A DNA stretch of 64,000 nt from Marasmius tenuissimus (taxonomy: Eukaryota > Basidiomycota > Agaricomycetes > Agaricales > Marasmiaceae). The notes beneath the pieces were generated by a model. The model searched no databases. It was not told the DNA's origin and was given only the letters and a program-made list of their open reading frames with translations. Shown piece after piece: positions 4,201-39,621 of this stretch; positions within the stretch are counted from its first letter, which is position 1, and each line of letters starts with the position of its first letter. The stretch is from positions 2,232,001-2,296,000 of the forward strand of contig JAQOTA010000053.1 in NCBI GenBank assembly GCA_029532415.1, read 5' to 3'. A program made the position numbers and the translations under genes.

Positions 4201-4370
4201 CAAGAATGATGGACTAAATACTATAGCAGAAGCTCTTGAAGCGCGCCGAACCTCTGAGTACATGCGCAGTCTACTCGTGGCGAGGAGATGGGAGATGATG
4301 GAGGCTCATGAGTTGCACGGCCTGAAGAGATACAGAACGAATAACTTTACCTCCAAGTTCAAACACGATG

Positions 4371-6479
4371 TCAATCGACGTCCACATCGAGGGTCTCCGT
4401 CGTAATGGCCAGTTCGCTTGAGACCTGCGTGGGCACCGAGAGGAATACGGGGGACCAAAAACTGGTACGACCCAGTCGACCTCCAGAGGTCGTGGGTCCT
4501 ATAGTTGGCTCAACTGGAGCAGAATCTTCACTGCCTTCCGAGATGTCCGATGTTGGTGTCGAAGATCTACTTTCAGGCGGAGATTCTGTCAACAAAGTTG
4601 AAGAAGGTCAGGTAATGTGAGATAGATGAGAGTGATAAAGCAAACCTAGGTAAATTTCAAACCGATCCAAGTCATCCACAGGCTGAAAAAGGTTATGATT
4701 GTATCCGAGATGACGAGCAAAATCGGTAGTGGAAGGGTCAAAGCCTCGGTGGAGTTGATATTGATATATATGTTCGTAGCCTCCGTTGAGTATAGAGAAT
4801 GATTGGCGGTAACCTCGGAATTTGAGCTCATCGGGAAGGCCGAGGTCGCGACAGGTATTGAGTGAGAGAGGAGAGTGGCCCTCCTCGTGAAAAGACCAAT
4901 AATGAAGGGAAGAGGTTTTGCAATCGCTCAGGTCAGAGGGAAGTGGACGAACAAATAGGTAGATTGGTTGTTGTAACTGTTTCCTGAGTTGGGCGTCAGA
5001 GCATGCTGAAAAGTCGCTGACCAACTGGCCGCGAGGATAGACAAGTACTACAAAACGTTGACAGGTAGAAAGGGAATGCAAGCCTGACAACGCACTGTAA
5101 ACGCTCAAATCATCCTCCAAAGTGACTCCGCGATCATGAAAAACGCTCCAAGCTTGCGATTCCCAGGCGTAATCTATATTCCAATTCCAGTCCAACACAA
5201 CAAACCGGGGTGAGCCGGTGAGTGTGAATCTACTCGAGTGTCAGATAAACAAGTGAATGATCGCTTTCAACTCACCTGGTCAACCCATTTTCCAGCAGTT
5301 TTCGATCTGAAAGATGGTCAATGGGGCTTTCGCTCTCCCAGACATTGTTTGCGATAGCAAGGGGGGTGTTTGTCAATCTTGAAATGACGGTGGGTTGAGA
5401 GACTGGCGCAGATGTAAAGCTGATACATCCAAAACTTTTAATGACATCGCGGTCCACTTCCTTCGACTTGAGACTCGCCACAAAGCACAATAAAACATCG
5501 CTTCGAAGAAGCTCTACTGCTAAAGGCAAATCTATCTTCCCGAACCAGTGCTCCACCTTTCTTGACCCGGAAACAGGCCCCGGCGGACCACGACAGAGAA
5601 CTCCTCTCCCACAATCCACCCACAACTCGTCGAGATTCTCGCAACCCAGTTGGGCCTATAACCAGTTCATTCAAATGAATCCAAAGTTCATGTTGGCTAC
5701 TTACAGCTGCACTACCGAGATACTGCAAATTTATCCACCATGGATCCTCCCTCGACAGCGACTGGGACTGGGACTGGGACTGAGACTGAGACTGGAAGAC
5801 CGGGATCAAATCTACAGTAAATCAGTCACTGAGCTAGTGAGACCCGACCTAGACCATGCAACCACGTACCGTTGTACAATATGAGTGATGGAATTCCCGA
5901 CTTGCTGTAGCCATATATTTGTGACGCATTCGACGTCCTAGCACGATCTGAGCATCCATAATAATGAGAGGTGGAAGGAAAGTACACACAATATATTCGA
6001 TAGCATCCGAAAGTCTTGTAGAAAAGTCTGAAAAGGGAGTTAAACTGCACCTTGAACTCGATTTCAGTGGGCGTACCTTCCACGCATCTGGCCCACTATA
6101 CTGCAGCATTGTAAAAACCATTCCCGGTTGCTCTAGCACTCTTGCTGTACAAATTATCCTGTCAGATCGAGGTGTCCCCTCTTCCCACTCCCGCCTATCC
6201 CCATCGTCCCATCGTCGCGGATAGACGAAAGACCCAACATCCTTCGTCTTGAAGATCCCACCGAGCTTTACCTTGAAGTACTAGGAAAATAATCATTTCC
6301 TTGCGAATCGACGAACAACTTTGCCCCCTCACCTCATCAAACTCTGAAGGTTCCTCCTCCTTCGCTTGTACAATCGTCGTCATCGTAAAATTGTTGTTGT
6401 ACTGATCTCCCTGAACCTGGTTGAAGCTCCCGCCGGTGATTTGAAGGTTCCTAGCCTTGTGGAAGAACTGGGAGAACAT
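4371..6479 (-). CDS. Tandem family copy 2 (FNQVQGDQ-type), with a Ser-Gln repeat
   Basis: The ATG is at 6479 and the stop at 4371. The N-terminal motif is NLQITGGSFNQVQGDQ. The conserved blocks are present: GRGVLCRGPPGP, VLLCFVASLKSKEVD, VLENGLTR, SSLHYWSF and RGFDPSTTDFARHLGY. The last exon ends WSPVF, then TLDVDVD and the stop. Exon 5 (around 5700-5815) carries an in-frame hexanucleotide expansion that encodes about six consecutive Ser-Gln pairs, absent from the other copies. The exon-8 region reads in one frame, so the copy may be functional. Function is unknown. Confidence 0.74.
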
Positions 6480-8170: not shown

Positions 8171-8340
8171 ATAATGCTACAAGAATGGAAGACTATATAC
8201 TACAGCAGAAGCTCCTACAGCGCGCCAAACCTCAGCATCGGACGCGCCTCGTTTACTTGTGAAGTGACTGGATTGAAGAAATATTTAAGTCGCGGGGCCT
8301 GCAGAGACTCAGAACGAATAAATCTACATCAAACAGGACG

Positions 8341-10437
8341 TCAATCGACGTCCGCATCGAGGGTCTCCATCGCCGTGGCCAGTTCACTTGAGGCCTCCGT
8401 GGGTAGCGAGAGGAATGCGGGGGACCAAAACCCGGTATAGCCTAGTCGAGCTCCGGAGGTCACAGATCTTGGTTCCACTGAAGCGAGTGTTTCACACTCT
8501 TGGATGTTGGATGGCGGTGTTGAAGGTCTGCTTTCAGGTGGAGGGTCTGCCAGCGAAATTGAAGGAGGTCACGCAATGTCAGATAGATCATATGTGAGGA
8601 CAACGAAGCAGACCTTGGTGAAATTCAAAGCGATCCGAATCGTGAATAGACTGGAAAAGGTGTTGATCATATCCAAAGTGGCGAGCAAAATCGGTAGTGG
8701 AAGGGTCGAATCCCCGGAGGAGTTCATATTGGTGTATGCGGTGGTATCTTTCGCTGTACCAAGAGAACGTCTGGAAGCCGAGATGTATGAATCCAAGCTC
8801 CGTGGGAAGGCCGAGGCCGCGACAGGTAGCGGATGAGAGATGAGAGCGACCGTCTTCGTGAAAAGACCAATAATGAAGAGAAGAAGTTTCGCAATCATGC
8901 AGGTTGGAAGGAGGCGAACGAACAAAGAGGTAGATCGGTGGCTGCGATTGTCGTTTACTTTGGGGTTCAGGGTCATCTAGAGAGCCGCTCGTCTGTAACT
9001 TGGCGTAAGGGCAGACAAGGCCTGGAAAACATTAACAGGTGGAGAGGGAATACAAGTCTGGCAACGCACTATAATCGTTCAAATCATCCTCCAAAGTGAC
9101 TCCGCGATCGCGAAAAATTCTCCAAGCTTGCAACAGCCAGGCGCGTGTTGTAATGGTCCACTGATTACACGCCAACGCAATATACCGGGGTGAAGCAGCG
9201 AGTGTAAATCTACTCGAGTTGTCAGATAATCAAGGGAATGATTGCCCCAAACTCACCTGGTCAGCCCATTTTCCAGCACTTTTTGATCTGAAAGAGAACT
9301 GTTGTCGCTCTCCCAGGCATTGTTTGCGACAGCAATGGGCGTGTTTGTCGACTGTGAGATGACAGTTGGTTGGGACACTCGTGGGGGAACGAACCACGTC
9401 CCGCTACCGGCGTTGAATTCAATGACGCGGCCGTCCACTTCCTTCGACTTTAGACTCGCCACAAAGCGCAACAAAACATCTTCTTGAAGAAGATCCGCCG
9501 TCAAAGGCAAGTCTGACTCCCCAAACCAGCGCTCGAAGTATCCGATGCGAAGTGAGGCTGGTCCTGGTGGACCACGACAAATCGTTCCTCTCCCAGTATC
9601 TATCCACAACTCGCCGACATGCTCGCAACCCAATCGCACCTGTAACCATTTCATTCAAGCGACCCCAAAAATCACAATGACTACTTACAGCGAGACTATG
9701 GAGATACATCAGTACCAGACGTGGGCCACTTTTCCCCTCCGACGTCAACTGCAAAGCCGGTACCAAATCTACATGCAGCAAAACACATTAGTGAAACTCA
9801 ATCCAGAGCATGCAACCACGTACCGTTGTACAATATGAGTGATGGGATAGATGACTTGCTGTAACCATAAATTTGCGATGCATTCGATGTCCTAGCGTGA
9901 GTTGAGCATCCGTGACAACAAGAACCGGAGGGGTAGTAGTACACACAGTATGTTTGATAGCATCCGAAAGTCTCTAAGAAAAGCCTGAAAAGGGAGTTAG
10001 ACCGTTCCTTGAGATCGAAAATCAACGGACGTACCTGTCGCGCATCTGGCCCACTATACTGCAGCATCGTGAACACCATTCCCGGCTGCTCCAGCACCCT
10101 CGCTGTACAGATTGTCCTATCAGACCGAGGTTTCCCCTCTTCCCCCTCGCGCCTATCCCCATCATCCCATCGTCGCGGATAGGTGGAAGACCCAACATCC
10201 CTCAGCTTGAAGATCCCACCAAGCTTCACTTTGAAATACTAGGACAATCATCAGATTCTGGCAATTCGAGAACCAAGTTTGTCCACTCACCTCATCGAAT
10301 TCTGAAGGTTCCTCCTCCTTTGCTTGAATAATCGTTGTCGTATAGTTGCTGGTGTTGTACTGATCTCCTTGAACCTGGTTGAAGGTACCGCCGGTAATCT
10401 GAAAGTTCCGCGCTTTGTGGAAGAACTGGGAGAGCAT
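8341..10437 (-). CDS. Tandem family copy 3 (FNQVQGDQ-type), intact 557-aa reference copy
   Basis: The nine exons join in frame: 10437-10291, 10238-10035, 9984-9947, 9891-9824, 9768-9689, 9639-9257, 9209-9070, 9021-8614 and 8546-8341 (1674 nt, 557 aa). All eight introns are GT-AG and 48-67 nt long. Landmarks: NFQITGGTFNQVQGDQ at residues ~10-25, an acidic EEEPSEFDE at the end of exon 1, GMVFTMLQYSGPDA in exon 2, QIYGYSKSSIPSLILYN in exon 4, GRGTICRGPPGP and VLLRFVASLKSKEVD in exon 6, SSLHYWSF and RGFDPSTTDFAR in exon 8, and FWSPAF plus TLDADVD at the C-terminus. No signal peptide or membrane segment is visible. The family is known to me only as uncharacterised, lineage-expanded Agaricales proteins. 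The N-terminal Gly/Asn/Gln motif resembles short motifs at the start of many mushroom NLR-like proteins (inference). Confidence 0.83.
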
Positions 10438-12820: not shown

Positions 12821-12986
12821 GATGATAGAATATGTACATACACTACAGCAGAAGCTCCTACAGCGTGCCGAATCTCTGCGTACACGCCCAGTCTACCTGT
12901 GGCGAGAAAAGAGGAGATGGTGATTTATGAGTGGGGTGGGGTGGTTTGCAGAGATACAGAACGAATGACTTTACCTCAAGCGGGAT

Positions 12987-15075
12987 TCAATCAACGTCCA
13001 CGTCGAGTGTCTCCGTCGTAGTGACCAACTCACTTGAAACCCCTTTGGGTAACGGGAGGAATACGGGCGACCAGATTCCGGTATGGCCTGGTCGTGTTCC
13101 GGAGGTCGTAGTTCCTAGAGTTGGTTCGAAGGCTGAAGCAGAATCTTCACGCGCTCCCGAACTGTCGGATATTGGCGTCGAAGGCCTTCTCTCGGGCGGA
13201 GATTCTGCCAGTAAAATCGGAGAAGGTCAGGCAAGATCGGAGAGGTGAGAGAGATGAAGCAAACCTAGGTGAATTTCGAACCGATCTGAATCATTCACAG
13301 GCCGGAAAAGGTTATCGTCATATTCGAGATGACGAGCGAAATCGGTAGTGGAAGGGTCCAATCCCCGGAGGAGTTGATATTGGTATATGCGTTGGTATTC
13401 TTCGTTGTGCCAAGAGAGCTGGAGAACCCGCTCCTATATGAAAGCTCGTTGGGAAGACCGAGGCCGTGACAGGTATGAGGCGAGAGAGGAGAGCGACCGT
13501 TCCTGTCAAAAGACCAATAATGAAGGGAAGAGGTTTTGAACTTGCCCAGGTCGAGAGGTGGTGGACGAACAAAGAGGTAGATCGGTCGTTGGGATTGTAG
13601 CTCGCGTTGGGCTTTAGGGTCATCCAGAGGGCCGCTGGTCTGTAACAAAGCGTGAGGGAAGACGAGGTCTGTGAAGAGTTAGCAGGTGGAAAGGGAATGC
13701 AAGCCCAACAACGCACTGTAACCGCTCAAATCATCCTCGAAACTGACCCCACGATTATGAAAAGTTCTCCAAGCTTGCGACAGCCAGGCGCGTGTTATGA
13801 ATCTGCAGCTATTCCAAGCCAAAAGAAGACGACGGTGACGCGGTGGGCTAATGAGTGTGAATCTACTCGAGCCGGAGTTGTCAGTTAATAAGTGAATGGT
13901 TGCCTCAAACTAACCTGGTCAGCCCATTTCCCAACACTTTTCGATCTGAAAGACGATCGTTCCTACTCGTCCAGGCATTGTTTGTGGCGGCAATGGGCGT
14001 GCTTGTCGACTTTGAGAAGATGATAGTTGGTTGGGAGACTCGTATAACACGTAACGGGTAAGAAGTGCTTGTATCAATGACGTAGTGATCCACTTTCTTC
14101 GACTTTAGACTTGCAAAGAAGCGCAGCAGAACATCGCTTTGAAGAAGATCTGTCGTCAAAGGAAAGTCCATACCTCCAAACCATCGCCCTTGGTATCCGA
14201 ACTGAAAGGCTGGTCCTGGTGGACCACGACAGAATATTCCTCTCCCAGTATCTATCCACAACTCGTTGTCGTACTTGCAACCCAATTGTGCCTGTAACCA
14301 GTTAATTTGTGTGTATTCAAATATCACAATGGCTACTCACGACTACACTATCAAGACACTTCCAGCCCAATACCCCTAAATTCCTCTTCGACACCAACTG
14401 CGAGGCCGGTACCAAATCTACAGTAAAAACATTAGTAAAACCCGACCTGGAGCGCGTAACTACGTACCGTTGTACAATACGAGTGATGGAATGGACGACT
14501 TGCTGTAACCATATATTTGCGACACATTCGACGTCCTAGTGTGATTTAAGCACCCATAACAATGAGAATTGGGCAGGTAGTACACACAGTGTATTCGATA
14601 ACATCCGAAAATCTTCCAAGAAAGCCTGGAAAGGGAGTTGGACCGTTCCTTGAGCTCGAAAATCAACGGGCGTACCTTCCGTGCATCCGGTCCGCCATAC
14701 TGCAACATTGTAAACACCATTCCCGGCTGCTCTAGCACCCTTGCTGTACAAACTGTCCTGTAAGACCAAGGTTTTCTCCCATCCCACTCCTCTCTGTCGT
14801 CCAATTCTCGTGGGTAATAGGTGGAAGACGCAACATCTCTCAACTTGAAGATCCCACCGAGCTTCACCTGAAAATACTATGACAAGTGTCAGAATATTGC
14901 GATTCGACAAATAATTGCATCCACTCACCTCATCAAACTCTGAGGGTTCCTCCTCCTTCACTTGAATAATCGTTGTCGTATAATTGTTGTTGTTGTACTG
15001 ATCTCCTTGAACCTGGTTGAAGGTACCGCCGGTAATCTGAAAGTTGCGTGCCTTTTGGAAGAACTGGGAGAACAT
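12987..15075 (-). pseudogene. Tandem family copy 4 (FNQVQGDQ-type), frameshifted in exon 8
   Basis: The ATG is at 15075 and the expected stop at 12987-12989. Exon 1 carries NFQITGGTFNQVQGDQ, and exon 6 carries GRGIFCRGPPGP and VLLRFFASLKSKKVD. The last exon is intact and ends TLDVDVD. In exon 8, around 13414-13422, this copy has one C fewer than the copies near 30821 and 37945 (gagagctgg against gagagcctgg). The frame is lost just after NELSYRSGF. The product would be truncated before the FDPSTTDFARHLGY block. A sequencing or assembly error is the alternative explanation. Confidence 0.7.
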
Positions 15076-17150: not shown

Positions 17151-17321
17151 CTACAAGGACCAGAGACTATATACTACAGCAGAAGCTCCCACAGCGCGCC
17201 GTATCTCCGCGTACACACCCAGTCTGCCTGTGGCGAGGAGAGGCCGGAGATGGTAATTTGTGAGTTGCGCGGCCAGGAGAGATACGGAACGAATAACTTC
17301 ACCTCAAGTTCAAAAACGATG

Positions 17322-19409
17322 TTAATCGACGTCCACGTCAGGAGTCTCCATCGTAGTGGCCAGCTCAATAGGGACCTCTGTGGGCAATGGGAGGAATACG
17401 GGCGACCAGATTCCGGTCTGGCCTAGTCGAATTCCAGAGTTTACAGGCCTTGGAGTTGATTCGACTGGAGTGAAATCTTCACTCTCTTCTGAGATGTCGC
17501 CGGATTTTGGTGTCGAAGGTTTACTTTCGGGAGAAGATTCTGCAAATATAATTGTACTGAGGTCAGGCAACGTGAGGTAGATGAGTGATGAAGCAGACCA
17601 TGGGAAAATTCAAACCGATCCGAGTCGTTCACGGGCCGGAACATGTTATTGCACTCGAGATGATGAGCAAAATCGGTAGTGGAAGGGTCAAAGCCTCGCA
17701 GGGGCTGATATTGGTGCATAGTTAGGTATTCTTCGTTGAACCAGAAGAGTGAGTCGAAGCCGCGGTTCATGTAATCAAGCTCGTTGGGAAGGCCAAGACC
17801 GTGACATGTATCGGGTGAGAGAGCAGAGCGGCCGTCTTCGTAAAGGGACCAGTAATGAAGGGAAGACGTTTCGCACCAATGTAGGTCGGAAGGAGGCGAA
17901 CGAACAAAGAGGTAGATTGGTTGTTGCGATTGTTGCTCGAGTTGGGCTTCGGAGTATTCTGCGGGGCTATAGGCCTCTAGCTCGGCACGATGGTAGACAA
18001 GGTCTGTATAATGTTAGCAGGTGGGAAGGAAATTAATGCAAGTCTAGCAACGCACTGTAATCAGTCAAGTCATCCTCCAAAGTGACTCTGCGGTCGTTAA
18101 AAACCCTCCAAGCTTGCGACATCCACGCTCTAGCGAGACACGCCTTATTATTCCACTCTAACCAAGGCCTGAGATACGGTGGGTTATGAGCGAGTGTGAA
18201 TCTATTCAAGTTCTCAGTTGTCAGAAAAGCGATGAATACTTTAGTTTGCTGTCAACTCACCTGGTCAACCCATTTTCCAGCACTTTTCGATTTGAAAGAC
18301 GATTGTTCCTGCTCTCCCAGGCATTGTTCGCAATAGCAATGGGGGTGTTTGTCAGCTTTGAAATGACAGTTGGTTGGGAGACTTGTACGGGCGCATCGAC
18401 GCATACAAAGTCATCAGTGGCGCTGTGATCAGCTTGCTGCGACTTTCGACTTGCCATGAACCGCAACAAAACATCTTTTTGAAGGAGAAGTTCTGCCGTC
18501 AAAGGCAAGTCTGACTCCCCAAACCAGGGGCCCACGTATCCATTGTAAAAAGCTGGTCCTGGTGGACCACGACAAATGATTCCTCTCCCGGTATCCATCC
18601 ACAACTCGACATACTCGCAACCCAATTGCCACTGTAACCAGTTGGTTCAAGTGTATCCCAATATTACGATGGCTACTCACAGCTGCACTGCTGAGATACT
18701 TTCGAGCTAGACTCCTTGTATTCCCCTTCAGCATCAACTGCGAGGCCGGTGCTAGATCTACAACAAATACATCAGTGAAACTCGAACTAGAGCATGCAGC
18801 TACATACCATTGTACAATATGAGTGATGGAATGGATGCCTTGCTGTAACCATAAATTTGCGACGCATTTGAAGTCCTAGCACGATTTGGGCATCCATGAT
18901 AACGGGAGTTGGAACGAAAGTACGCACAGTATATTCGATAGCATCCGAAAGTCTTCCAAAAAAGCCTGGAAAGGGAATCAAACCGTTTCTTGAGCTTGAA
19001 GTCAGTGGGCGTACTCTCCGCGCTTCTTGCCCACTATACTGCAGCATCGTAAACACCATTCCAGGCTGTTCTAGCACCCTTGTTGTACATATCATCTTGT
19101 CAGCGCGCAGCAGAGTCCGGCCTTCCTGCTTGTCGTCCACGTCGTCCAACCACCGCGGGTACGCTGAACATCCAACATCTCTCAACTTGAAAATTCCACC
19201 GAGCTTCACTTTGAAATACTGGGATTCATGTCAAGTTCCCGCTATCCGACACAATGTTGTCTATTCACCTCATCAAATTCTGAAGGTTCCTCCTCCCTCG
19301 CTTGGACAATCGTTGTCGTGTAATGGTTGTACTGATCTCCCTGAACCTCATTGAAGTTGCCGCCCGTAATCTGGAAGTTTCGCGCCTTGTGGAAGAACTG
19401 GTTAGGCAT
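17322..19409 (-). CDS. Tandem family copy 5 (FNQVQGDQ-type)
   Basis: The ATG at 19409 begins MPNQFFHKARNFQITGG, followed by NFNEVQGDQ. The stop is at 17322. Exon 6 keeps GRGIICRGPPGP and VLLRFMASRKSQQAD. Exon 8 keeps RGFDPSTTDFAHHL. The last exon begins near ESSPESKPSTPKSGD and ends TPDVDVD. With copies 6 and 7 it shares the PNQ/SNQ start (the others have LSQ or FSQ) and the shorter Tyr/Asn stretch after the motif, so these three may form a subgroup. No stop was seen in the exons followed. Function is unknown. Confidence 0.72.
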
Positions 19410-21886: not shown

Positions 21887-21931
21887 TCAATCGACGTCCT
21901 CGTCGAGTGTCTCCGTCGTAGTGGCCAGTTC
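21887..21931 (-). pseudogene. Severed 3' end of family copy 6
   Basis: On the minus strand this short segment encodes the last residues of the family, ELATTTETLDEDVD and the stop. It matches the C-termini of copies 1-5 and 7. The rest of the gene lies 8.5 kb away at 30437-32462, because the transposon at 21932-30430 is inserted here. Confidence 0.88.
21926..21931. repeat. Left target-site duplication of the rve-integrase transposon (cagttc)
   Basis: cagttc directly precedes TATGGCACA and recurs at 30431-30436 directly after the right end. The other family copies have a single cagttc at the homologous position. Confidence 0.9.
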
Positions 21932-23391
21932 TATGGCACATATAGTGAGTAAAAATTACCTGTGAGATTTGAGCGACTCCGTAAGATTCGAGTTCGGCCT
22001 GGAGGTCTTCACTGAGAGCAGACTTTCGGTAAGAGATTCGGAGAGGCTGGGTTAGAGTCAAGTGAGAGTTGACTAAGGGTAACCTTCGATTCAAGGGGGG
22101 AAGCTCTCGATTTGAATGGGCCATAGCGGGATAGGACGAGATTCGATTCTAAGGGAACGCCGCTTCGTCCGAAATGCCGACGCCTTAAGTTCACACCACC
22201 TGTAGGCTGTACGTAGTCACATGCTCCCTCTTGCCCTCTTACCACCATCACCATTGTTGTGATCGTGCTCCATCGTTGCGGGTACTCTCTTCCTTCCACT
22301 GTTACAGAAATCACGGAAGTATAAACTAGTTGTTGAGCTAGTTGTCAAGCGGAGGAGCAACTGACTTTCGAGTAAGTAAGAGCAATGGATGGTGGGCTAA
22401 CAGTGACTTTTTTCCCTCCCGAGATTGGTCGGTCCCTTTCAGTCACTTTCGCAGGTTCTGCGTTGGCCTTTCGTGGTTCAACAGTGGTACTTCGCCCTAG
22501 TCTTTTAATTTTTCATTGCAGATTTTCCAACCTACTCCGCCAAAACTTCATCTCACTTTGAGCCTTGTACGGTAAGCCCGCCTGGTACGTCTCGCTGATG
22601 CCATTGTTGAATGACCTTCCACCCTTGTTAATTAGCCTCACTGGCTTGGCAAAGCCGAGGATTTTGCTGTCGACATCCAATGGTCGTGATGCACGGTCCA
22701 TGGAGTGACAAGGCAAAGCGTGGGGCTTATATAAACTTGTCTTGTTCCGTCTACAGAGGTATGGTGGAATGGAGCAATTTTCTCCACATTTAACCGTGTA
22801 TCAACGATACCAATAACTGCTGTGTGACCCCTACATCCATCTCAATAGTCAGGTCCGGTAGGCACGCCGGGAACAAGGGTCTTATTGCTTGCATGACTTT
22901 TTTTTCGTTCTTTTTCGATCGGTTGGGAGGGCCCCGCGTGCTGTGGCGACAGTTCTTAAAAAACTGTTGTACCTGGATTAAAACCGCTCGGCATACCTGG
23001 CGTTGTGCTTCTAGCGCGAGCTGTTGCTAAGGTGAGCGAGTCATCTTACTGCTTTTATCAGCGTCTAATCACCTCTCGGTAGCTTTTGGGCTTGTGGAAT
23101 ATCGCTGAGCGGCGCTTCATATCAGATGCACAGATACCCGCCCACTCACTACCATATCCGGATATCGCGAACGCCGGCCATCTTGGAGCAACAGCATACT
23201 CCCCAGGGGTCATCGGGTTCGAAAATTCGTCGGTGAAAAATTGTTTCGCTGACTGAGGAAGTTAATTTAGCGAGGTATTATAATACCCCATTTTGACTAG
23301 TTCGACTGGCACATAGAACTACACACTAAAAAATCGGCATGAGCTCGTTCAGTGCCCATTCGTAGGAGCTTCTATCTTATACCGCGTCGCG

Positions 23392-23441
23392 CCACGACGC
23401 GTTGTACTTATCGAACTAAGAACACATCTAACGCGTCGTGG
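23392..23441. repeat. 12-bp perfect inverted repeat upstream of the first transposon gene
   Basis: ccacgacgcgtt (23392-23403) and aacgcgtcgtgg (23430-23441) are exact reverse complements separated by 26 nt. They lie about 250 bp upstream of the ATG of the 14-exon gene. A role as operator or hairpin is only a guess. Confidence 0.55.
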
Positions 23442-23640
23442 ATGCGTTGAGGATTCACGCCATCTTGTATAGCGTCTCATTGATGACCATCTACCCTGAA
23501 CGGGCGGCCGGATACCGTTGTATTGACTATCCACTCCCCCTTGAAAATTTTAGGATGGAGACGCAGCCAAGGCGAGCCTAGCATAGCAGCAACCTTCATC
23601 TCGTTGCTCCATTTTCCCGTCACGGTCCTACTTCGCGGCC

Positions 23641-23649
23641 CTATAAATT
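23641..23649 (+). promoter_or_regulatory. TATA-like box of the 14-exon transposon gene
   Basis: ctataaatt lies 46 bp upstream of the proposed ATG at 23695, with pyrimidine-rich sequence between them. This spacing fits a short 5' leader. Confidence 0.45.
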
Positions 23650-23694
23650 CCACAGTTTGTCCATTCCCCTTTTGTCCCAACAGCCTCGCCCACA

Positions 23695-26600
23695 ATGCTG
23701 AACCTGGGCACCTGCCACAACGACTCTTGTCCCTTCAAAGGCTTTGAACATGAGTTTGACGCCGTGGATAGTTCCGTAACTCCCGTGTTGGCTCAGATTT
23801 GCAAGATATGCGGCTGTACTGCCAGCTTGCACGATAGAATTACTGTGAGTATTGACATACGCATCTTCGTACTCAATATCTCCGCCAAGCTAAATGATTG
23901 ATTGCACATAGGCACCTCAGCAAGAACCACAACGCACTAGCAACCGGGTTCGTTGACTCAGTCGTCCCGAATTTACGACTTTCAACACTGATCGTCTTCT
24001 CGTCTTAGCCTGTGTCTTCAATCTTCAAGGAGGCTGCAACTCGTCGGAAGCAAAGGGCCAACGAGGCGACTATCAACGGTGTTAAGGAGCAAATGGCATT
24101 CGATCCGGGTGTAAAGGTATGCTGTAGCCACCTGCATCTATCGGGGCCCCTGTGACTGACCAATAATTAGGTTCAAATGGATGCGTTTCAAGACAGCAAA
24201 AGCCACAAGCGTCCGCCCCGGAAGGCAAAAGGGACGAAACGAAAAAGCCGTGGAGATGATCTTACAGATGAGGACTCAAGTATCAGTGCCGGGAAGAAGC
24301 AAAAATCTGCGGAGGAGCTCGAGCTTCATATTGTCTTCATTGGGAGGACAGACGAAGTCTATTCCGCAGGTGGTGCAAAATGCCCCACTCCTTCCGAGTA
24401 AGTAGATAAAAGTTTTACATGCACTATCGTCGCTCAACATGTCATTCCACTGCAGATGGGAACCGATGTTCTATGAACATAAATCGATCAGGTCGGTCAA
24501 GATAACAAGCGATGACACCCCTGCCTCCATCCGGGCCCGGATCGTTGGCGCGTTCTCTGGCTCAGACGACAAACTCTTTGGCACGGACAGCACCCTCATT
24601 GAGAACTTTGTGTACCTCTGGAGGCAAGGTAACGGCCCGGGACGACCTTCCAAAGTCCGGCTCGTCAAAACGTCTCAGAACCCGGGCTTTGAGGATGTTA
24701 AGACGTGAGTACAGCCCTCTTCGGTCTAATGCTAGAATTAATCTATTTCCTTTTAGGCTCCGTGAAGCAGGCACTAATGCTGCCACTCGGCGGTTCAACA
24801 ATCGGGTATACATTGCCCTCGTAGAAGGTTCTCCAAATATCTTGCCAGCTGCCTCGGATGAGAGTGACAGTGAAGCTGCCGACGACACGCATCCTGATAC
24901 ACCCGTGAGCCGCAATAGTGCTTGTTAGTCATTGGCTTCTTCTGATTCATATTAGATGGATGATGCGACCCCAATCGTGGACGCGGAGGAAGACCCCAAG
25001 GACGCCTCCACAACGGTGGATGGTGATGGCCGTGAGTAATCGAATTGCGAACACTACAGGATATTCTTTACTGATTCTACTATAGGCGATGAGGCGAAGG
25101 GTACGGAGAGACAATATCTCTTCTCCAAGACGCAGGAAGTCTGGTCCCTGATAACGAACATGACTGCTCCGAGCAATGACATGCCTTGGGTATGTGTTTA
25201 TTTTGTCTATTTTGTCGTGTGACTTGCTGATGTATGTTCGATGAAGTGGCCTCTCAAACCGTCTGCTCCTTATGAGGAGATCATTCCGCTCGCCAACTGT
25301 GTCCTAGGACAACTCTCTAAGTACGATCGATCGAAGGACATGTGCCGCTTTCAGCCCATTGCCGAGGAGATCATAAAGCCTGATGACCTCTTTCCGTCTT
25401 TGGACTTCCTTGTTGCTTATGCAAACGCAATTGATCCGGACTCTGCGCCCGAAGACGGAGACTTTTTTACCGTGTTCAAACTTGGGGAGCACGGTTTATT
25501 TTTGATCGTCAAGGCGTTGTTTGGGATTCACCTCGGATTGAAGACCCACAATAATACCCTTCCTCTCACTCTGTACAACTCCGTCGTTGACCAGCTGAAC
25601 GCTATCGGCCATGCCCTACACACTTTGCTCCAGGAGTTCCGTAAACGTGTTGCCCGACGTTTCTATGCTCCACCTGGATTTTCCGAGTTCTTCAATGTCA
25701 TTGATGACTTCGAGTCTCTAAGGGACCTACCAGTAAGTTTACTACGTTGCTTCGCTTTCAATGAGACCCACTAAACATACAAACTCAGGTTGCCACGCGA
25801 ACTGACAGGTATCTTCTTCTCATCCTAGACCCAACCACATATCCAGGACAGACAGAAACACCAGCGGTTTTTGAACGAGTAATGAAGTTCGACTTCGGGA
25901 GCTCTACCAACCCCGAAGAGATGAATAGTTCCGCACTGCGGACAGGAGTTTACGGTCTTCATGGCCTGTTTTACTTATGTTCGCGCTTTCTTGACCACCC
26001 ACCTGTCCTTCCCGACGATGATCGCCGCAAGGACATGTATGTCAATCTTTTCCCCGTTCTTGGCATTTTCCTTGCTGCACTTACTCAGAAGATCAAGAGT
26101 GCTTCTAAGGTAAGTAGCGTATTCGGCCTCCCTTCTCAAATATTCGTCGACTCAATCGGTTATATACAGGCCTCAGGGAAGCGGAAGGAGAAGGATAGGG
26201 CTTCTCCAGGCCGAACACCACCGAGGTAATCCTGGACCTCTTCCTTTTCGCTCTATTTGCAAGCTTATGATTCATGATAGACCGGAGTCCGTCCACACAC
26301 TGTCTTCAGGCTCGGAAGATGAGGATGAGACTCCTTCTAGTGCTCATCAATTTCATTTTCGGGAGGGTATGTCTGAGTTAAATTTTTCGATAAGTGCGAA
26401 TCTGGCCTAACCAACTTCCTTCGTTTAGATTCGTTCCAAGGTCACAGAGCTGAGCCACCACCGTGTTCATCGGGATCCGTACCGCCAAAATCAAATCAAC
26501 GCCCTCGCCCTCAACCTACCGGGTTCAAGCCGACCTATGCAGCTACCGGCACATCCAGCACCTCCAGTACTGGCGTCAAGGCCAAAGAGCGGGTATGGCA

Positions 26601-26944
26601 GCACCTGGTTGATGATCTCGAATCGGAATATCTACGCCATTCTGGTCAGGCTCGCGCGTTTTACCAGGATCTCTGGATGAAATTTGCGTGGTATCCGAGA
26701 CTCCAATCTGAACCCGACCTCCGCTGGAACATCATTCGTCAACGTGCAGATTATGATATCTATAAGGTTGCAATCCGAGTATGTATTTCGGATTTCTACG
26801 GAACAGTGGCCTTACTTACCTGCATTTCTTCAGGTATTTCATTCGGACAAGCTGCAGCCTCACTTCAGGACTGAAGACATGGAGAAGTTGGCCAACGAGA
26901 TTACCCGCCTTTTGGTGAAATGCAAGGAATTGAACCATAAATAA
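23695..26944 (+). CDS. Transposon-borne 14-exon gene, 835 aa, zinc-site N-terminus and J-like C-terminus
   Basis: Exons: 23695-23844, 23912-23947, 24009-24116, 24171-24397, 24456-24704, 24757-24904, 24956-25031, 25086-25189, 25247-25732, 25789-26109, 26170-26225, 26281-26366, 26429-26778 and 26834-26944. They sum to 2508 nt with no stop. The 36-nt second exon rests on a weak donor (gttcgt) and could be skipped in frame. The N-terminus has spaced Cys/His (TCHNDSC, then CKICGCTASLH), a possible zinc site. A Lys/Arg-rich nuclear-type segment (KRPPRKAKGTKRKS) follows. A globular stretch begins ELELHIVFIGRTDE, followed by an acidic linker. A helical middle starts WPLKPSAPYEEIIPLANCV. The C-terminus reads RVFHSDKLQPHF, like a DnaJ helix with HSD in place of HPD. 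I do not recognise the family. Its place beside the integrase, in the same orientation inside the TIRs, suggests a transposition accessory protein or a passenger. Confidence 0.75.
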
Positions 26945-27194
26945 CTATTGTAAACCGTTTAAGGCTATTACTCGCCGCAATCTGGAGCACCGATTCAACT
27001 TGGAGCCATTTATCTTGAGACTGCTCAGTACTGTAGTACCATACTACCAAATCTATTAGTTATCATCACGACTGACTGGATTTAAGCGAGAACCTTTGAA
27101 CCACAAGCTCAAACATTGATATGACCGTATGACGACACCTTGATCATCAACCGTCACCATCGATCTTGATTCGCTCCTGCCAGTGCTCGCAACT
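26945..27194. other. Spacer between the two transposon genes
   Basis: 250 bp that contain the presumed 3' end of the upstream gene and the promoter of the integrase gene. No clear TATA box was identified. No other structure was seen. Confidence 0.5.
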
Positions 27195-28874
27195 ATGCAT
27201 AGTGAGGATCAAGAAGAGCTCCATGGCGACGACAACGGCGATAGCACTCACATATTTCTTCTACGTGCTGAGGTTATCGTTCGAGAGGCTTCGCTAGTCG
27301 CACAATCCATTCCTGATGCTGAAGAGTTTGCGGTGGAGAGGGCGTTAAGGCGACTGATGCGCATTTATCACATCCTTTCCAACCTCAATGATCCACTCAT
27401 AACACCCAGTGAGCTTCAGGAGCTTGTCCAAACCATTGTTGACGCAGCTCTTCCCCTAGCCGAGTTCCTTCGAAATCCTCCACCACCTCCTGCGGCCCAA
27501 ACAAGGTACATATACACGGGTCAACCAGGTCGTCCTTGTTATCAGCTCGATCTGCAGCGACTCGTGGATCTTCACGATCTTGGCTGCACATGGAAGTCAA
27601 TCGCACAGGCTGTTGGCGTGACCCGCAAAACTATCTATAATCACCTATCTCGCGCAGGTTTATCACCCGAGCGACCATCTTATAACATCATTTCCGACGA
27701 AGAACTGGATGAACTTGTTGCAGAGATAAGTCTTATGCATCCATTGGCGGGCTCGGTCATCATTATCGGTCATTTGGCGGCCAAAGGATGGCGGATTCCT
27801 CTGCTTCGAGTGCAGCAAAGCTTGCAGCGTGTTGACGCGATTGGTGTATTCGTTAGGTGAGTCGACATTCTCGTGCACATCTGTGACCTGGCTGACAGCA
27901 CAATTAGATGGAGTGGGTGCATTAAACGGAGAATATACAAGGTACGGGGTGCAAATGCACTTTGGCACCATGACGGAAACGAGAAGCTGAGGCCATGGGG
28001 ATTCTATATACATGGATGTGTCGATGGCCATTCGCGATTGATGATCTATATGCACTGCTGTAACAACAAACGTGCATCGGTTGTGGGTATGATATTTAGG
28101 GAGGCAGTCGAGATATTTGGATGGCCCAGTCGCATGCGAGCAGATTTTGGAAGGGAAAACAATGAGGTTGAACGACTGATGGTTCGCAGATGGGGAGAAA
28201 ATCACCGAGCATATCTGCGAGGGCGGTGAGTGTTTGACAAATCATGTTTTCTTCGAGCTTTCTGATCGATTATCTGCGGCCCTAGTTCAACTCAAAATGT
28301 TAGGATTGAGCGGGCGTGGAGGGATGTTCGTAAGGATACAATTGAGTCCTTTCGGAAGGTCTTCATGTATCTCACAGAGGTTCACCTCCTCGATATGGAG
28401 GATCCCCTCCACCGAATCTGCCTCTATATTGTTTACCAGCCACGTATCCAAGCGTCCCTGAACCGAACCATGGCGTCCTGGAACCATCATCGCATGCGCA
28501 CCGCCCAAAACAAGTCTCCGCTGGCGTTATATGAGTTGAGTCGGGAAACTGCCATCAACCGAGGATACTGGACGGGAGATCCTGGAGATCCCATCACTAC
28601 GACATTGGATCCCGATTATGGGCAAGAGGATGGTGACCTGCCTCCTCTGGACGAACTACAAGCAGACCCTCAGCATCCCGAGTACCGGGATTACGCCTCT
28701 TCGGCCGAGGAGAAAGCGGATGGGGTGTTTGTGAATAACGATGCTGAGATCACAGAGGGACAGCGGTTCTTCGAGTCTCATGGGTTTGATACAGGTCGAG
28801 AAGATGGAAATTGGGGGATTGACGTTTACTGCGAAGCAGTAATACTTATGGAACAATATGTAGATAGTTTATAA
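27195..28874 (+). CDS. rve-type DDE integrase/transposase, 522 aa
   Basis: Three exons (27195-27856, 27908-28225, 28286-28874) with introns of 51 and 60 nt encode 522 aa. The first ATG of the frame is used. A helix-turn-helix reads GCTWKSIAQAVGVTRKTIYN and is preceded by GQPGRP. A conserved block (SDEELDELV) and the sequence ahead of the core (RWSGCIKRRIYKV) follow. The core has D243 (ALWHHDGNEKLRPWGF), the strand YIHGCVDGHSRLMIY, D300 (SRMRADFGRENNEV) and E335 (GRSTQNVRIERAWRDVRKD). Spacing is D-56-D-34-E, as in retroviral-type integrases. The second intron falls inside GR-S next to the catalytic Glu. The remaining segment ends in WNHHRMRTAQNKSPLALYEL, then an acidic tail. The architecture matches the integrase core domain proteins of fish, corals and mushrooms. 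It is the probable transposase of the element at 21932-30430, and it looks intact. Confidence 0.88.
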
Positions 28875-29219
28875 CGACACTTAAGCCAGGCGAACGAAGG
28901 GTGATGTCGGATTCCAGGATGTTACTGGGCTAGGGATAATCGATAATCCTAGGAAATGAACCATCACGTGCTCACTGCTCAACCCGGGGAGACCGTACCG
29001 ACTCCGACACCTCTCCACGACTTGAATCGGGGATTGACCAACTCAAATCGAGGGGATCTCTTCTGTCCTCTGAGCAAATACCGTCTCGAGAAAGCTTGAT
29101 TTCTCATCATACGAGGGAAATCTCGTCCATAGAAAGTCCGTTGAAAAGGAAATCTCGCAGGCTGGACTCGAATCTCATATCACCCGAATCTCACAGATAA
29201 TTTTTACACAGTATTTGTG
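28875..29219. other. Right arm and interrupted right TIR of the outer transposon
   Basis: Non-coding. From about 29110 to 29219 it is homologous to the right end of the nested 1.2-kb element (30306-30414), so the two share about 110 bp of right-end sequence. Repeated AATCTC motifs are dense here. The terminal repeat is cut after tttgtg (29214-29219); its last 5 bp (ccata) are displaced to 30426-30430. Confidence 0.7.
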
Positions 29220-29275
29220 TATGGCACAAATACTGTGTAAAAATTATCTGCGAGATTTGGGTGATATGAGATTTG
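29165..29275. repeat. Near-perfect palindrome formed by two abutting TIRs
   Basis: The right terminal repeat of the outer element (ending tttgtg at 29219) abuts the left terminal repeat of the nested element (from 29220). This makes an inverted repeat of about 50 bp per arm with almost no loop and few mismatches. It is explained by the nested insertion and needs no separate function, but it could be cruciform-prone. Confidence 0.85.
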
Positions 29276-30419
29276 AGATTGAGCCATGAGATTTCATTCC
29301 TCAGTAAACTTAGTATGGATGAGATTTGCCTTGTGGGATGGATTACAAAGAAATTCGAGCCAGAAGACGTCCCGATTCAAGTGACCTCGAGCGAGATTCA
29401 ACTCGAGTTCGCGATCCGAGTCGAGTCGACCGTCGAAAGTCCGACTTGAGACAAGGAAATGTTGAGTTGGGGCCGTCTCCCACACTCCATCCGAGGCACG
29501 GGGTAATACTTTAGAATCCCTCAAATTTGTTACTGCCTTCGTACATATGCATAGCTCTGGTCCGACGGCCCCAGGATGAGAAAGGTGTGTGCTTGCAAAC
29601 TGCTCAATTCATCATCCCTTCTCACCAGGGCCAGACGAGAGTTGCAGCCAGTGCGAAACCAGCGGCAAAAAAAGCCTACATTAAGCTCCGACCCGCCTCT
29701 ACCAGCAGCGGCTGCGGTACAATTCTTCTTTTTCCCCATTCCACCACGACCTCTTTGATACAAAGAATGAGTAAGGCCTGGAGAGGAGCAGATATTGCCA
29801 TAAACTGAAATGACATACTACAGTGTTTTGTTAGAGTTATGGCACATTTGAGCAACCTCAAAAAAGCCCTAAAGAGATGGAATCACAATCTTGACAATAA
29901 CACACTGATTTAGCGCGTCAGGAAGCTCCCCCATAAGTAGTTTCTCCTGTGATATCACTGATTATTTGTGCATCATCTGACGACGACGACGTAGACCTCT
30001 CATGTCGGGCAACAGGACTTCTGGCGCGCTGTTTAGTGAGACCGTGCCATCTCCCAACAAAGGACTGCAAGCGACGAGCAGGAAGGAAAGTTGCCAACCT
30101 CCATGCCGGCCGTACCTTAGCTATGAGGACGACGTTCGGGAAAAGCGGCATGTCTGCGCTCGCAACGCTACTTGATGAGCTTGACTCCCTTTTCAGTGGT
30201 TTTGACTCATATCTCCCCCTGTTTTGCGGCATCCCATTCAAATCGAGATGTTTTTCTCTCAAAATGTAGGGAGCTTCGATTGAATATCTGCTGGAAACTC
30301 ACCTTGCGAGGGAAATCTCACTCATGGAAAGTCCATCGAAAAGGAAATCTCACAGGCTGGACTCGAATCTCATATCACCCGAATCTCACAGATAATTTTT
30401 ACACAGTATTTGTGCCATA
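29220..30419. mobile_element. Nested non-autonomous relative, 1200 bp, TSD tttgtg
   Basis: It starts TATGGCACAAATACTGTG and ends CACAGTATTTGTGCCATA. The terminal repeats match over about 55 bp with around three mismatches. It is flanked by tttgtg at 29214-29219 and 30420-30425. Removing the element and one duplicate restores an uninterrupted right end for the outer transposon. It shares the terminal ~55 bp on the left and ~110 bp on the right with the outer element, but the interior is unrelated and has no convincing gene. It is therefore a MITE-like derivative that could be mobilised by the same integrase. Confidence 0.87.
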
Positions 30420-30430
30420 TTTGTGCCATA

Positions 30431-30436
30431 CAGTTC
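30431..30436. repeat. Right target-site duplication of the rve-integrase transposon (cagttc)
   Basis: cagttc directly follows TGTGCCATA and pairs with 21926-21931. Confidence 0.9.
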
Positions 30437-32462
30437 GCTTGAGATCTCTGTGGGTAACGGGAGGAACACAGGCGACCAAAAACCAGTATGGCCGAGCCGA
30501 GTTCCAGAGATCGCAGACTTTGAGGGGTTTGATTCGATTGGAGTGAAATCTTCAATCTCTTCGATGTCCGATGTCATTGTCGAAGATTTACTTTCGGGCG
30601 GAGATTCTGCCAACAAGATTGAAGAAGGTCAGGCAATATCCGATAGATGAGAGAGATGAAGCAAACCTTGGTGAACTTCGAACTGATCCGAGTCATTCAC
30701 AGGCTGGTAAAGGGGCTGGTCATATCCGAGATGATGAGCGAAATCGGTAGTAGAAGGGTCGAATCCCCGGAGTTGATATTGGTGTATGCGTTGGTATTCT
30801 TTGTTGTGCCAAGAGAGCCTGGAGAACCCGCTGCCATATTCAAGCTCATTGGGAAGGCCGAGGCCACGACAGATATCGGGTGAGAGAGGAGAGCAGCCGT
30901 CGTCGTGAAAAGACCAATAATGAAGGGAAGAGGTTTTGCACTCGTCCAGGTCGAGAGGTGATGGGCGAACAAAGAGGTAGATCGGTTGTTGGGATCGTAG
31001 TTCGTGTTGGGCTTCAGAGGCATCCAGATAGACGTCGGTCTGTAACCAAGCGCAAGGGAAGACAAGGCCTGTGAAACGTTAACAGATGGAAAGAGAATGC
31101 AAGTCCAACAACGCACAGTAATCGCTCAGATCATCCTCCAAAGTGATCCCGCGTTCGTAAAAAACTCTCCAAGCTTGCGACAGCCAGGCATATCTGGTAG
31201 TTTCATTCGACTCCAACAAAAGATACTGGGATGGTTTAGCGAGTGTAAATCTACTCGAGTTGTCAGATAACCAAGTGAATGATTGCATCAAACTCACCTG
31301 GTCAGCCCATTTTCCATCACTTTTCGATCTGAAAGATTAGTGCTGACGCTCTTCCAGGCGATGTTTGCGGCGGCGGCAATGGGCGTGTTTGTCGACTTTG
31401 AGATGACAGTTGGTTGCGAGACTCGTACATCGATGTATGACGCGGACGAGGTAATGGCGATTTGCTTAGTGACGTCGCGATCCACTTGCTTCGACTTTAG
31501 ACTCGCCAAGAAGCGCAACAAAACATCGATCTGAAGAAGATCTGCCGTCAAAGGCAAGTCTGAGTCCCCAAACCATCGCCCTCTGTATCCGATCTCAAAG
31601 GCTGGTCCTGGTGGACCACGGCAAATTGTTCCCCTTTCCGTATCTAACCACAGCTCGTCTTCGTGTTCGCAACCCAATTGGTCCTGTAACTAGTTCATTC
31701 AAGAGTATCCAAATATTACAATGGTTACTCACAGCTACACTACTGAGATACATTTTGCCCCATCCCCCCATATCGCCCTTCAACTGCGATGCCGGTGCCA
31801 AATCTACAGTAAAAAGATCAGCGAGACCCGACCCAGAGCATGCCTCCACGTACCGTTGTATAATACGAGTGATGGAATCTTCGACTTGCTGTAGCCATAG
31901 ATTTGCGACACATTTGACGTCCTAGCATGATTTGAGCATCCATTATAGATGAGAATTGGAAGGATAGTACGCACAGTGTGGTCGATAGCATCCGAAAGTC
32001 TTCAAGAAAAGCCTGCAAAGGGAGTCAGACCGTGGCTTGAGGTCGGAAATCAACGGGCGTACCTTTTGTGCATCTGGCCCGCTATACTGCAGCATTGTAA
32101 ACACCATTCCCGGCTGCCCTATCACCCTTGCCGTACAAATTATCCTGTCAGCCCGCGGTCCATATCTATCTTTCCACCACTCTTCATCTTCGTCGTCCAG
32201 CCATCGCGGGTACGTGGAAGACCCAACATCCCTGAGCTTGAAGATCTCACCGAGCTTCAGCTTGAAATACTACGACAATAATCAGATTCTTGCGAATCGA
32301 AGAAGAACTGTATCCCCTCACCTCATCAAATTCTGAAGGTTCCTCCTCCTTCGCTTGTACAATTGTCGTCGTATAGTTGTTGTAATAATCCCCCTGAACC
32401 TCGTTGAAGTTGCCACCTGTAATCTGGAAGTTCCGCGCCTTGTGGAAGAACTGGTTAGACAT
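30437..32462 (-). pseudogene. Tandem family copy 6 (FNQVQGDQ-type), last exon split by a transposon
   Basis: The ATG at 32462 starts MSNQFFHKARNFQITGG. Exon 6 holds GRGTICRGPPGP and VLLRFLASLKSKQVD; exon 8 holds SSLHYWSF and RGFDPST. The last exon reads normally to PLPTEISSEL, then runs into the terminal repeat of the transposon. There the frame adds 14 residues (YGTNMAQILCKNYL) and meets a TGA. The native tail is at 21887-21931. Only about 12 residues are replaced, so the gene may still make a nearly full-length protein. I class it as a pseudogene only because its 3' end and poly(A) region are displaced. Confidence 0.78.
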
Positions 32463-37400: not shown

Positions 37401-37522
37401 GAATAAGTACAACAAACATGACGGACTACTTGCAATGGGGAGAGAGGAGATGGAGATTTTTGAATGGCGCGGCGTGCAGAGATATGGCATGAATAACTTG
37501 ATCTCAAAGCTCACACACGGTG

Positions 37523-39621
37523 TTAATCAATGTCCACATTGAGAGTCTCCATCGCAGTGGCCAGGCCACTTGAAACCCCTTTGGGTGATGGGAGGAATAC
37601 GGGGGACCAAAAGCTAGCTTGGCCTGGTCGAGGTCCAGAGGTCGCAGACCTCGATGTTGGTTCAACTGGAACGAAATCTCCGATATCTTCAATGTCGGAT
37701 ATCGGCGTCGAAGGTCTACTCTCGGGGGGAGATTCTGCCAACAAGACTGAAGGTTAGAAATTGTCAGAGCGATGAGAGTGATGAAGTGAACCTTGGTGAA
37801 TTTCGAACCGATCCGAGTCGTTCACAGGCTGGAAAAGGGGATGATCATATCCTAGATGACGAGCAAAATCGGTAGTGGAAGGGTCGAATCCGCGGAGGAG
37901 TTGATATTGGTGTATGCGTCGGTATTCTTCGTTGTCCCAAGAGAGCCTGAAGAACCCGCTCCTATATGCAAGTTCGTTGGGAAGGCCGAGGCCGTGACGG
38001 GTATCAGGTGAGAGAGGAGAGCGACCATCTTCGTCAAAAGACCAATAATGAAGGGAAGAGGTTTTGCACTCGCCCAGGTCGGGAGGTGGTGGGCGAACAA
38101 AGAGGTAGATTGGCTGTTGCGACTGTCGCTCGTGTTGGGCTTCAGAGTCATTCCAGTAATAGTCGTTGGTCTCTAACCAAGTGTAAGGGCAGACAAGGCC
38201 TGTAAAACATTAACAGGTGGAAAGGGAATGCAAGCCCAACAACGCACTGTAATCGCTCAAATCATCCTCCAAGGTGACTCCGCGATCGCGAAAAATCCTC
38301 CAAGCTTGCGACAGCCATGTGTGTTCTGTAGTTGGCCGCCAATGCCACTCCAACGAAAGATACTGGGGCGGGCCAGCGAGTGTAAATCTACACGAGTTGT
38401 CATGTAACCAAGTGAATGATTGCCTCAGAACTCACCTGGTCAGCCCATTTTCCAGCACTTTTCGATCTGAAAGATGGGTGCTGAAGCTCGTCCAGGCAAT
38501 GATTGCGATGTTTGCAGCGACGGCAATGGGCGTGTTTGTCGACTTTGAGATGACAGTTGGTTGCGAGACTTGTACATCGACCCATGACGCGGACAGGGCA
38601 GAGACGATTCTTTGAATGACGTCGCGATCCACTTCCTTCGACCCCAGACTTGCCAAGAAGCGCAACAACACATCTTCTTGAAAAAGTTCCGCCGTCAAAG
38701 GCAAGTCCAAATTCCCAAACCATCGCCCTCCGTATCCGATCCCAAAGGCTGGCCCTGGTGGACCACGACAGAACACTCCCCTCCCAGTATCTATCCACAA
38801 CTCGTTGACATTGTCCTTGCAACCCAATTGGAACTATAACCAGTTCATTCGAGTGTATCCAAAATTACAATGGCTACTCACAGCTACACTACTGAGATAC
38901 ATTTCGCCCCATTTCCCCATATCGGCCTTCAACTGCGATGCCGGTGCCAAATCTACAGCAAAAAAATCAGCGAGACCCGACCTAGAGCATGCCTCCACCT
39001 ACCATTGTACAATATGAGTGATGGAATTCCCGACTTGCTGTAGCCATATATTTGTGACGCATTTGACGTCCTAGCGTGACATGAGCATCCATAATAGATG
39101 ACAATTGGAGGGAGTACGCACAGTGTGGTCGATAGCATCCGAAAGTCTTCAAGAAAAGCCTGGGATGGGAATCAAACTATTCCTTGAGCTCGTAAATCAA
39201 TAGGCATACCCTATGTGCATCTGGCCCGCTATACTGCAGCATTGTAAACACCATTCCCGGCTGCTCTAGCACCCTTGCTGTACAAATTGTCCTGCAAGAC
39301 CAACGTTTCCCCTCTTCCCACCGCTCTCCATCCCCATCGTCCCAACGTCGCGGATAGGTGGAAGACCCAACATCCCTCAGCTTGAAGATCCCACCAAGCT
39401 TCACCTTGAAATACTACGACAATGATCAGATTCTAGCGATTCGAAAACCAATTTTATCCACTCACCTCATCGAATTCTGAAGGTTCCTCCTCCTTCGCTT
39501 GGATGATAGTCGTTGTATAATTGTTGGTGTTGTTGTTGTTGTACTGATCTCTCTGAACCTGGTTGAAGGTACCGCCGGTAATCTGAAAGTTCCGCGCCTT
39601 GTGGAAGAACTGGTTAGACAT
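37523..39621 (-). CDS. Tandem family copy 7 (FNQVQRDQ-type)
   Basis: The ATG at 39621 starts MSNQFFHKARNFQITGG. The motif then reads TFNQVQRDQ, with Arg where the other copies have Gly. An Asn/Thr-rich stretch longer than in other copies follows. Exon 6 keeps GRGVFCRGPPGP and VLLRFLASLGSKEVD and has a longer Ala/Ile insertion before VLENGLTR. Exon 8 keeps SSLHYWSFDEDGRSPLSPD and RGFDPSTTDFARHLGY. The last exon, from about 37727, begins LLAESPPESRPSTP and ends TLNVDID. No disabling change was seen in the exons followed. Confidence 0.74.

Follow-up and report, generated by a model that had tools for sequence, protein, structure and literature searches.

What kind of transposable element interrupts a host gene at positions 21932–30430 of a 64,000-nucleotide stretch of Marasmius tenuissimus DNA (the window; part of contig C10 of the 71-Mb assembly GCA_029532415.1), and does it belong to a superfamily that already has a name? 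The initial annotation of this interval described one fully delimited DNA transposon with an integrase and a partner gene. We find that the interval consists of two elements, a two-gene element (E1) and a short relative (E2) that lies within the right end of E1. With a probability of about 0.92, E1 belongs to the IS3EU/GingerRoot superfamily as an autonomous cut-and-paste DNA transposon, and it most likely represents a new family in this known superfamily. Among open-licence papers, none could be found by title or abstract that deals with this Marasmius element.

Anatomy of the nested elements

Both outer ends are exact, at 21932 (TATGGCACA) and 30430 (TGTGCCATA), and they are flanked by an exact 6-bp target-site duplication (TSD), CAGTTC, at 21926–21931 and 30431–30436. 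The initial annotation had these ends and this duplication right, but missed that 29220–30419 (plus strand) is a nested element, E2, which is 1,200 bp long and non-coding, with terminal inverted repeats (TIRs) of its own and the TSD TTTGTG at 29214–29219 and 30420–30425. The insertion site of E2 falls within the final 11 bp of E1, and the left TSD copy of E2 lies within the TIR of E1; the junction reads ...TTTGTG/TATGGCACAAATACTG...CAGTATTTGTGCCATA/TTTGTG/CCATA. Because of its own TIRs and its own TSD at these junctions, we read E2 as a separate element, and E1 therefore comprises 21932–29219 (plus strand) and its displaced last 5 bp, CCATA, at 30426–30430 (plus strand), which gives a size of 7,293 bp.

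The left TIR of E1 (21932–22001, plus strand) matches the outer right end, which is that of E2, in 55 of 70 positions (79%, E 2e-11), and the right end of E1 itself, minus the five displaced bases, in 50 of 65 positions (77%, E 1e-8). Inverted termini of about 45 bp had been described initially; they are present but longer than that. The right ends of the two elements are identical over their first 67 bp, the right terminal region of E1 extending over 29103–29219 (minus strand) up to TTTGTG. Otherwise, the likeness between E2 and E1 is confined to 122 bp at the right end (92%) and 122 bp at the left end (81%, inverted), with one 16-bp match as the sole similarity away from the ends.

The joined flanks of the insertion align at 75–82% with six paralogous host genes in the window (13–504, 4309–5001, 8177–8987, 12949–13628, 17288–17954 and 37510–38166). 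Five of these cross the junction gap-free at that very point and carry a single hexamer, CAGTTC in two and a variant in three. The sixth, 13–504, begins beyond the junction, so that the empty site first claimed for six paralogues is seen in five. On the minus strand, paralogue homology of the interrupted open reading frame (ORF; 30386–30628) ends at the element and, if this exon is the last, the insert replaces approximately the last 12 host codons by comparison with the paralogue ORF at 37523–37753. The host family has no Pfam match in the four pieces scanned.

The transposase and its superfamily

The integrase gene (27195–28874, plus strand; PM082_007954) consists of three exons (27195–27856, 27908–28225 and 28286–28874) and encodes 522 amino acids, identical to the public annotation P0004. 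As initially proposed, both genes of E1 appear intact: the integrase and the 823-residue partner are open, with GT..AG introns that we positioned by eye.

The catalytic core of the integrase scores 200 bits with the Pfam family rva_4 and 18.6 bits with rve. In a selection of 23 sequences from 59 hits, which includes the integrase itself, D300 does not vary and D243 and E335 hardly do; the second and third catalytic residues are 34 residues apart (DD34E). Since D243 lies on the first strand in the structure model, it is probably this aspartate, rather than D260, that is the first catalytic one. The model has a mean predicted local distance difference test score (pLDDT) of 78, and Foldseek finds 22 matches to it at E 0.001 or better, among them the integrases of Rous sarcoma virus and mouse mammary tumour virus, IstA and TnsB. 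The N-terminal region gives weak helix-turn-helix (HTH) matches below the cut-off, and the zinc integrase family is absent from the Pfam list at E up to 10, a list from which the filters drop most matches above 0.1. The initial view of a DNA transposon that encodes an integrase of the rve type is right.

The claim that it matches none of the named superfamilies is wrong. Repbase has listed IS3EU since 2013; its termini are always TA..TA, its TSD is usually 6 bp, and a bootstrap value of 99% joins it with GingerRoot in a single lineage (PMC10045372). E1 shares the TA..TA termini, the 6-bp TSD and an IS3-like Asp-Asp-Glu (DDE) transposase that lacks an upstream HHCC zinc domain (PMC10045372). 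The IS3EU elements of rust fungi have TIRs of over 30 bp, TAYGG..CCRTA ends, a 6-bp TSD and additional TET/JBP and alpha-kinase genes (PMC12730594); the terminal signature of E1, TATGG..CCATA with TIRs of 50/65 to 55/70, agrees with these ends, and E1 also carries an extra gene. IS3EU elements have already been annotated in the fungi Ganoderma and Phlebopus (PMC8955403, PMC12411881). Two other superfamilies were rejected on TSD length, which is 6 bp here, 4 (or 4–5) bp in Ginger1/Ginger2 and about 4, 15 or 25 bp in IS481EU (PMC10045372).

E1 differs from its published relatives in what it carries besides the transposase. In rust and Tuber IS3EU elements, the TET/JBP gene is flanked by the transposase gene on one side and by an oppositely oriented alpha-kinase gene on the other (PMC12730594), whereas E1 has one partner on the same strand, in which neither a TET/JBP nor an alpha-kinase domain was found. 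Styx of Zymoseptoria, whose transposase its authors tie to IS3EU, resembles E1 in length (7,927 bp), in its 6-bp TSD and in an inferred two-protein ancestor, but has four ORFs (transposase, GATA-like, CCHC and DUF3577); this comparison is by description only (PMC10853768). In the sections of the superfamily description that we drew on, a partner gene of this kind is not mentioned (PMC10045372). As for a catalogued superfamily with the same termini and coding content, the agreement thus covers the termini and the transposase and does not extend to the partner gene.

Other copies in the genome

A TIR probe yields 25 matches in the genome, and nine of the 11 end-pairs carry a perfect 6-bp TSD. 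By chance, a 6-bp match has a probability of 1/4096 per copy. By contig (C-numbers denote contigs of the assembly), these are, besides CAGTTC for E1 and TTTGTG for E2, GAAAAC on C54, CTAGGG on C7, TTAGTA on C18, CAGATG on C11, CGGCTG on C37, ATTAGG for a compound copy on C7 (2107923–2111606, with 232 internal bases outside the comparison) and CACAAA for a second autonomous element on C11. All nine have TA..TA ends, the C37 pair with one altered base further in. Single ends were left out of the pair count (C27:2193056, C10:152208, C10:4666252, C37:374251, the truncated outer copy C11:958216 and the inner end C7:2111307).

The 1.2-kb E2 unit stands alone with TSDs at C54, C7, C18, C11 and C37. 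Seven aligned copies are 87–99% identical, three of them at 98.9% or more. At C11:958216–960614, a truncated and a complete E2 copy adjoin, and their outer flanks mirror each other at 11 of 12 bases.

The second two-gene element (C11:926556–933511) has the same gene order as E1. Between the two elements, 74% of the aligned codons are identical in the integrase, with a crude ratio of non-synonymous to synonymous change (pN/pS) of 0.20 over 512 codons, and 48% in the partner, with an equally crude 0.43 over 700 codons. Non-synonymous change lies below synonymous change in both genes.

Overall, the genome contains at least about 35 rva_4 integrase loci (grouped by hand from 71 matches), some of them near-identical pairs. 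The pair at C5:1594055 and C3:843697 is identical over 3,050 bp; its right end could be located where the copies part, and its left end was not found. The other strand of the C5 locus also has a 545-residue ORF, which gives no Pfam match. From the near-identical pairs, other rva_4 lineages seem to have moved recently. In the more distant loci (L012–L038), a scan of 3-kb stretches revealed no TA..TA ends that have a TIR and a TSD.

The partner gene

The partner gene (23695–26944, plus strand) has 13 exons and encodes 823 residues. The public annotation, PM082_007953, covers it in part: it has 667 residues and starts downstream of the likely start, and a relative from Marasmius sp. AFHP31 matches our 823-residue model over its full length at 75%. 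We found three homologues, which all come from Marasmius and include the protein of the window itself, and a profile search gave the same three. The homologue search requires shared 5-residue words, scored 7,992 candidates and missed even the C11 partner, and the absence of the partner outside Marasmius is therefore weak evidence.

No known domain was recognized in this protein. Six exon stretches and the three relatives have no Pfam domain, PDB sequence profiles gave no match, and an AlphaFold model built from three sequences is poor (pLDDT 38.6), with no Foldseek match at E 0.001 or better. A resemblance of the motif FHSDK near the C-terminus to a degenerate J-domain found no support in follow-up searches. 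An alpha-kinase partner as in the rust elements was rejected as well: the genome has eight alpha-kinase matches, and on a shared contig the nearest lies approximately 269 kb from an rva_4 match.

Does the partner take part in transposition, or is it a captured passenger that stands outside the transposition machinery? The passenger reading is plausible, although we favour it less. The partner has changed faster than the integrase, with 48% identical codons compared with 74%, and is present at only two of the roughly 35 rva_4 loci, both counts being lower bounds from loci grouped by hand; moreover, the extra genes of other fungal IS3EU elements, TET/JBP and alpha-kinase, are quite different. 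Against this, the two genes lie together within the TIRs in both full elements of this genome, their gene numbers in Marasmius sp. AFHP31 are consecutive (PQX77_013398/013397), and they are fused in the annotation of another record (P0003). The pairing is thus kept in the C11 element and in both AFHP31 relatives, as expected from the initial suggestion that the partner travels with the integrase, and the pN/pS of 0.43 also argues against a passenger.

Alternatives to IS3EU membership

Several points weigh against assigning E1 to IS3EU. Membership rests on termini, TSD and domain rather than on a tree with Repbase proteins, and the case as a whole on anatomy and sequence rather than on present-day activity. 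No TSD flanks two of the 11 end-pairs: one is the C31 cluster, the other the E2-like copy into which the C11 element is inserted. The pN/pS ratios are crude because the comparison of E1 with the C11 element is saturated at synonymous sites, and PDB sequence profiles gave no relative of the integrase. The directed RAGATTY repeats, which in themselves speak for the assignment, number 4, 4, 5, 4, 4 and 1 in six 250-bp ends (four in the left end of E1, after the TIR) and 0 in the 5,180-bp coding middle, but the motif was chosen by eye after the ends had been inspected, and the single repeat is that of the right end of the C11 element.

Polinton/Maverick elements carry genes for DNA polymerase, capsid and packaging. 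E1 has two genes in 7.3 kb, neither with a Polinton-type domain (only these two genes were scanned), and was not assigned to Polinton for this reason. A 6-bp TSD is typical of Polinton too (PMC10045372), and the partner gene was found in Marasmius only; both would suit a separate superfamily without a name, or else a shrunken Polinton derivative, in which the 6-bp duplications arose by convergence. We nevertheless consider this very improbable, since the ends are TA..TA with the terminal signature of rust-fungus IS3EU (PMC12730594) and the matching domain is rva_4, not rve. The Polinton link raised by the initial annotation fares no better in the published tree, which sets IS3EU apart from Polinton, although this split and the deeper order are without statistical support (PMC10045372). 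Finally, a single 8.5-kb element with 29220–30419 as an internal duplication would place that segment wholly within the outer TSD, as observed, but is scarcely credible given that the segment is bounded by TIRs on both sides and flanked by a perfect TSD of its own, and that the same unit stands alone, with TSDs, on five contigs.

We thus retain E1 as a very probable IS3EU/GingerRoot element. It is well preserved and ordinary in kind, apart from its partner gene and the insertion into its own ends.

Proposed mechanism and insertion into own ends

How E1 may transpose is suggested by conserved residues and the fold, and by the mobility published for its relative Styx. The DD34E transposase, probably guided by its N-terminal HTH region to the directed RAGATTY repeats just inside the TIRs, would cut at the TA..TA ends and join them to staggered target cuts 6 bp apart; filling of the gaps by host repair would then leave the 6-bp duplications. 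E2, which shares these ends, could be moved in trans by such a transposase. The partner may be an accessory protein that the element carries, plausibly a cofactor in DNA binding or assembly.

E2 landed in the right end of E1 itself, at TTTGTG^CCATA. The reverse nesting is found at C11:926545–934716, where the two-gene element lies within an E2-like copy at the same TIR hexamer; the flanks of the outer copy mismatch. Of a third insertion at TTTGTG^CCATA, only the right side can be traced, at C37:374251; the left junction was not found. The exact left junction, TTTGTGTATGGCACA, is confined to the two resolved places, and with one mismatch it occurs at eight further places, compared with four in the control. 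The genome has about 130 ends in excess of the control (533 against 401 motif matches). With this number of ends, two such end hits among nine would have a probability of roughly 1e-10 under random insertion, a rough figure that takes events as independent and targets as uniform, for a window chosen for an element that carries one of the two hits.

The bacterial elements IS30 and IS911 target inverted repeats, and their insertion is attracted to their own ends (PMC9333248). The apparent attraction of E1 and E2 to their own ends is alike, but the bacterial reaction leads to an inverted repeat–inverted repeat junction beside the end (PMC9333248), whereas here the insert lies 5 bp inward from the end and has a usual 6-bp TSD. 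It is conceivable, though in our judgement unlikely, that the transposition complex of this Marasmius lineage includes the lineage-specific partner and prefers TTTGTG inside its own TIR, so that copies repeatedly enter one another's ends in a eukaryotic counterpart of IS3/IS30-type inverted-repeat targeting.

The analysis provides a delimited two-gene IS3EU element from a mushroom, with its empty site, TSDs and a non-autonomous companion family. The many Agaricomycetes proteins annotated as 'integrase catalytic domain' can accordingly be read as likely IS3EU transposases and end-targeting, if it holds, would connect a superfamily of eukaryotes with a behaviour known from its relatives in bacteria.

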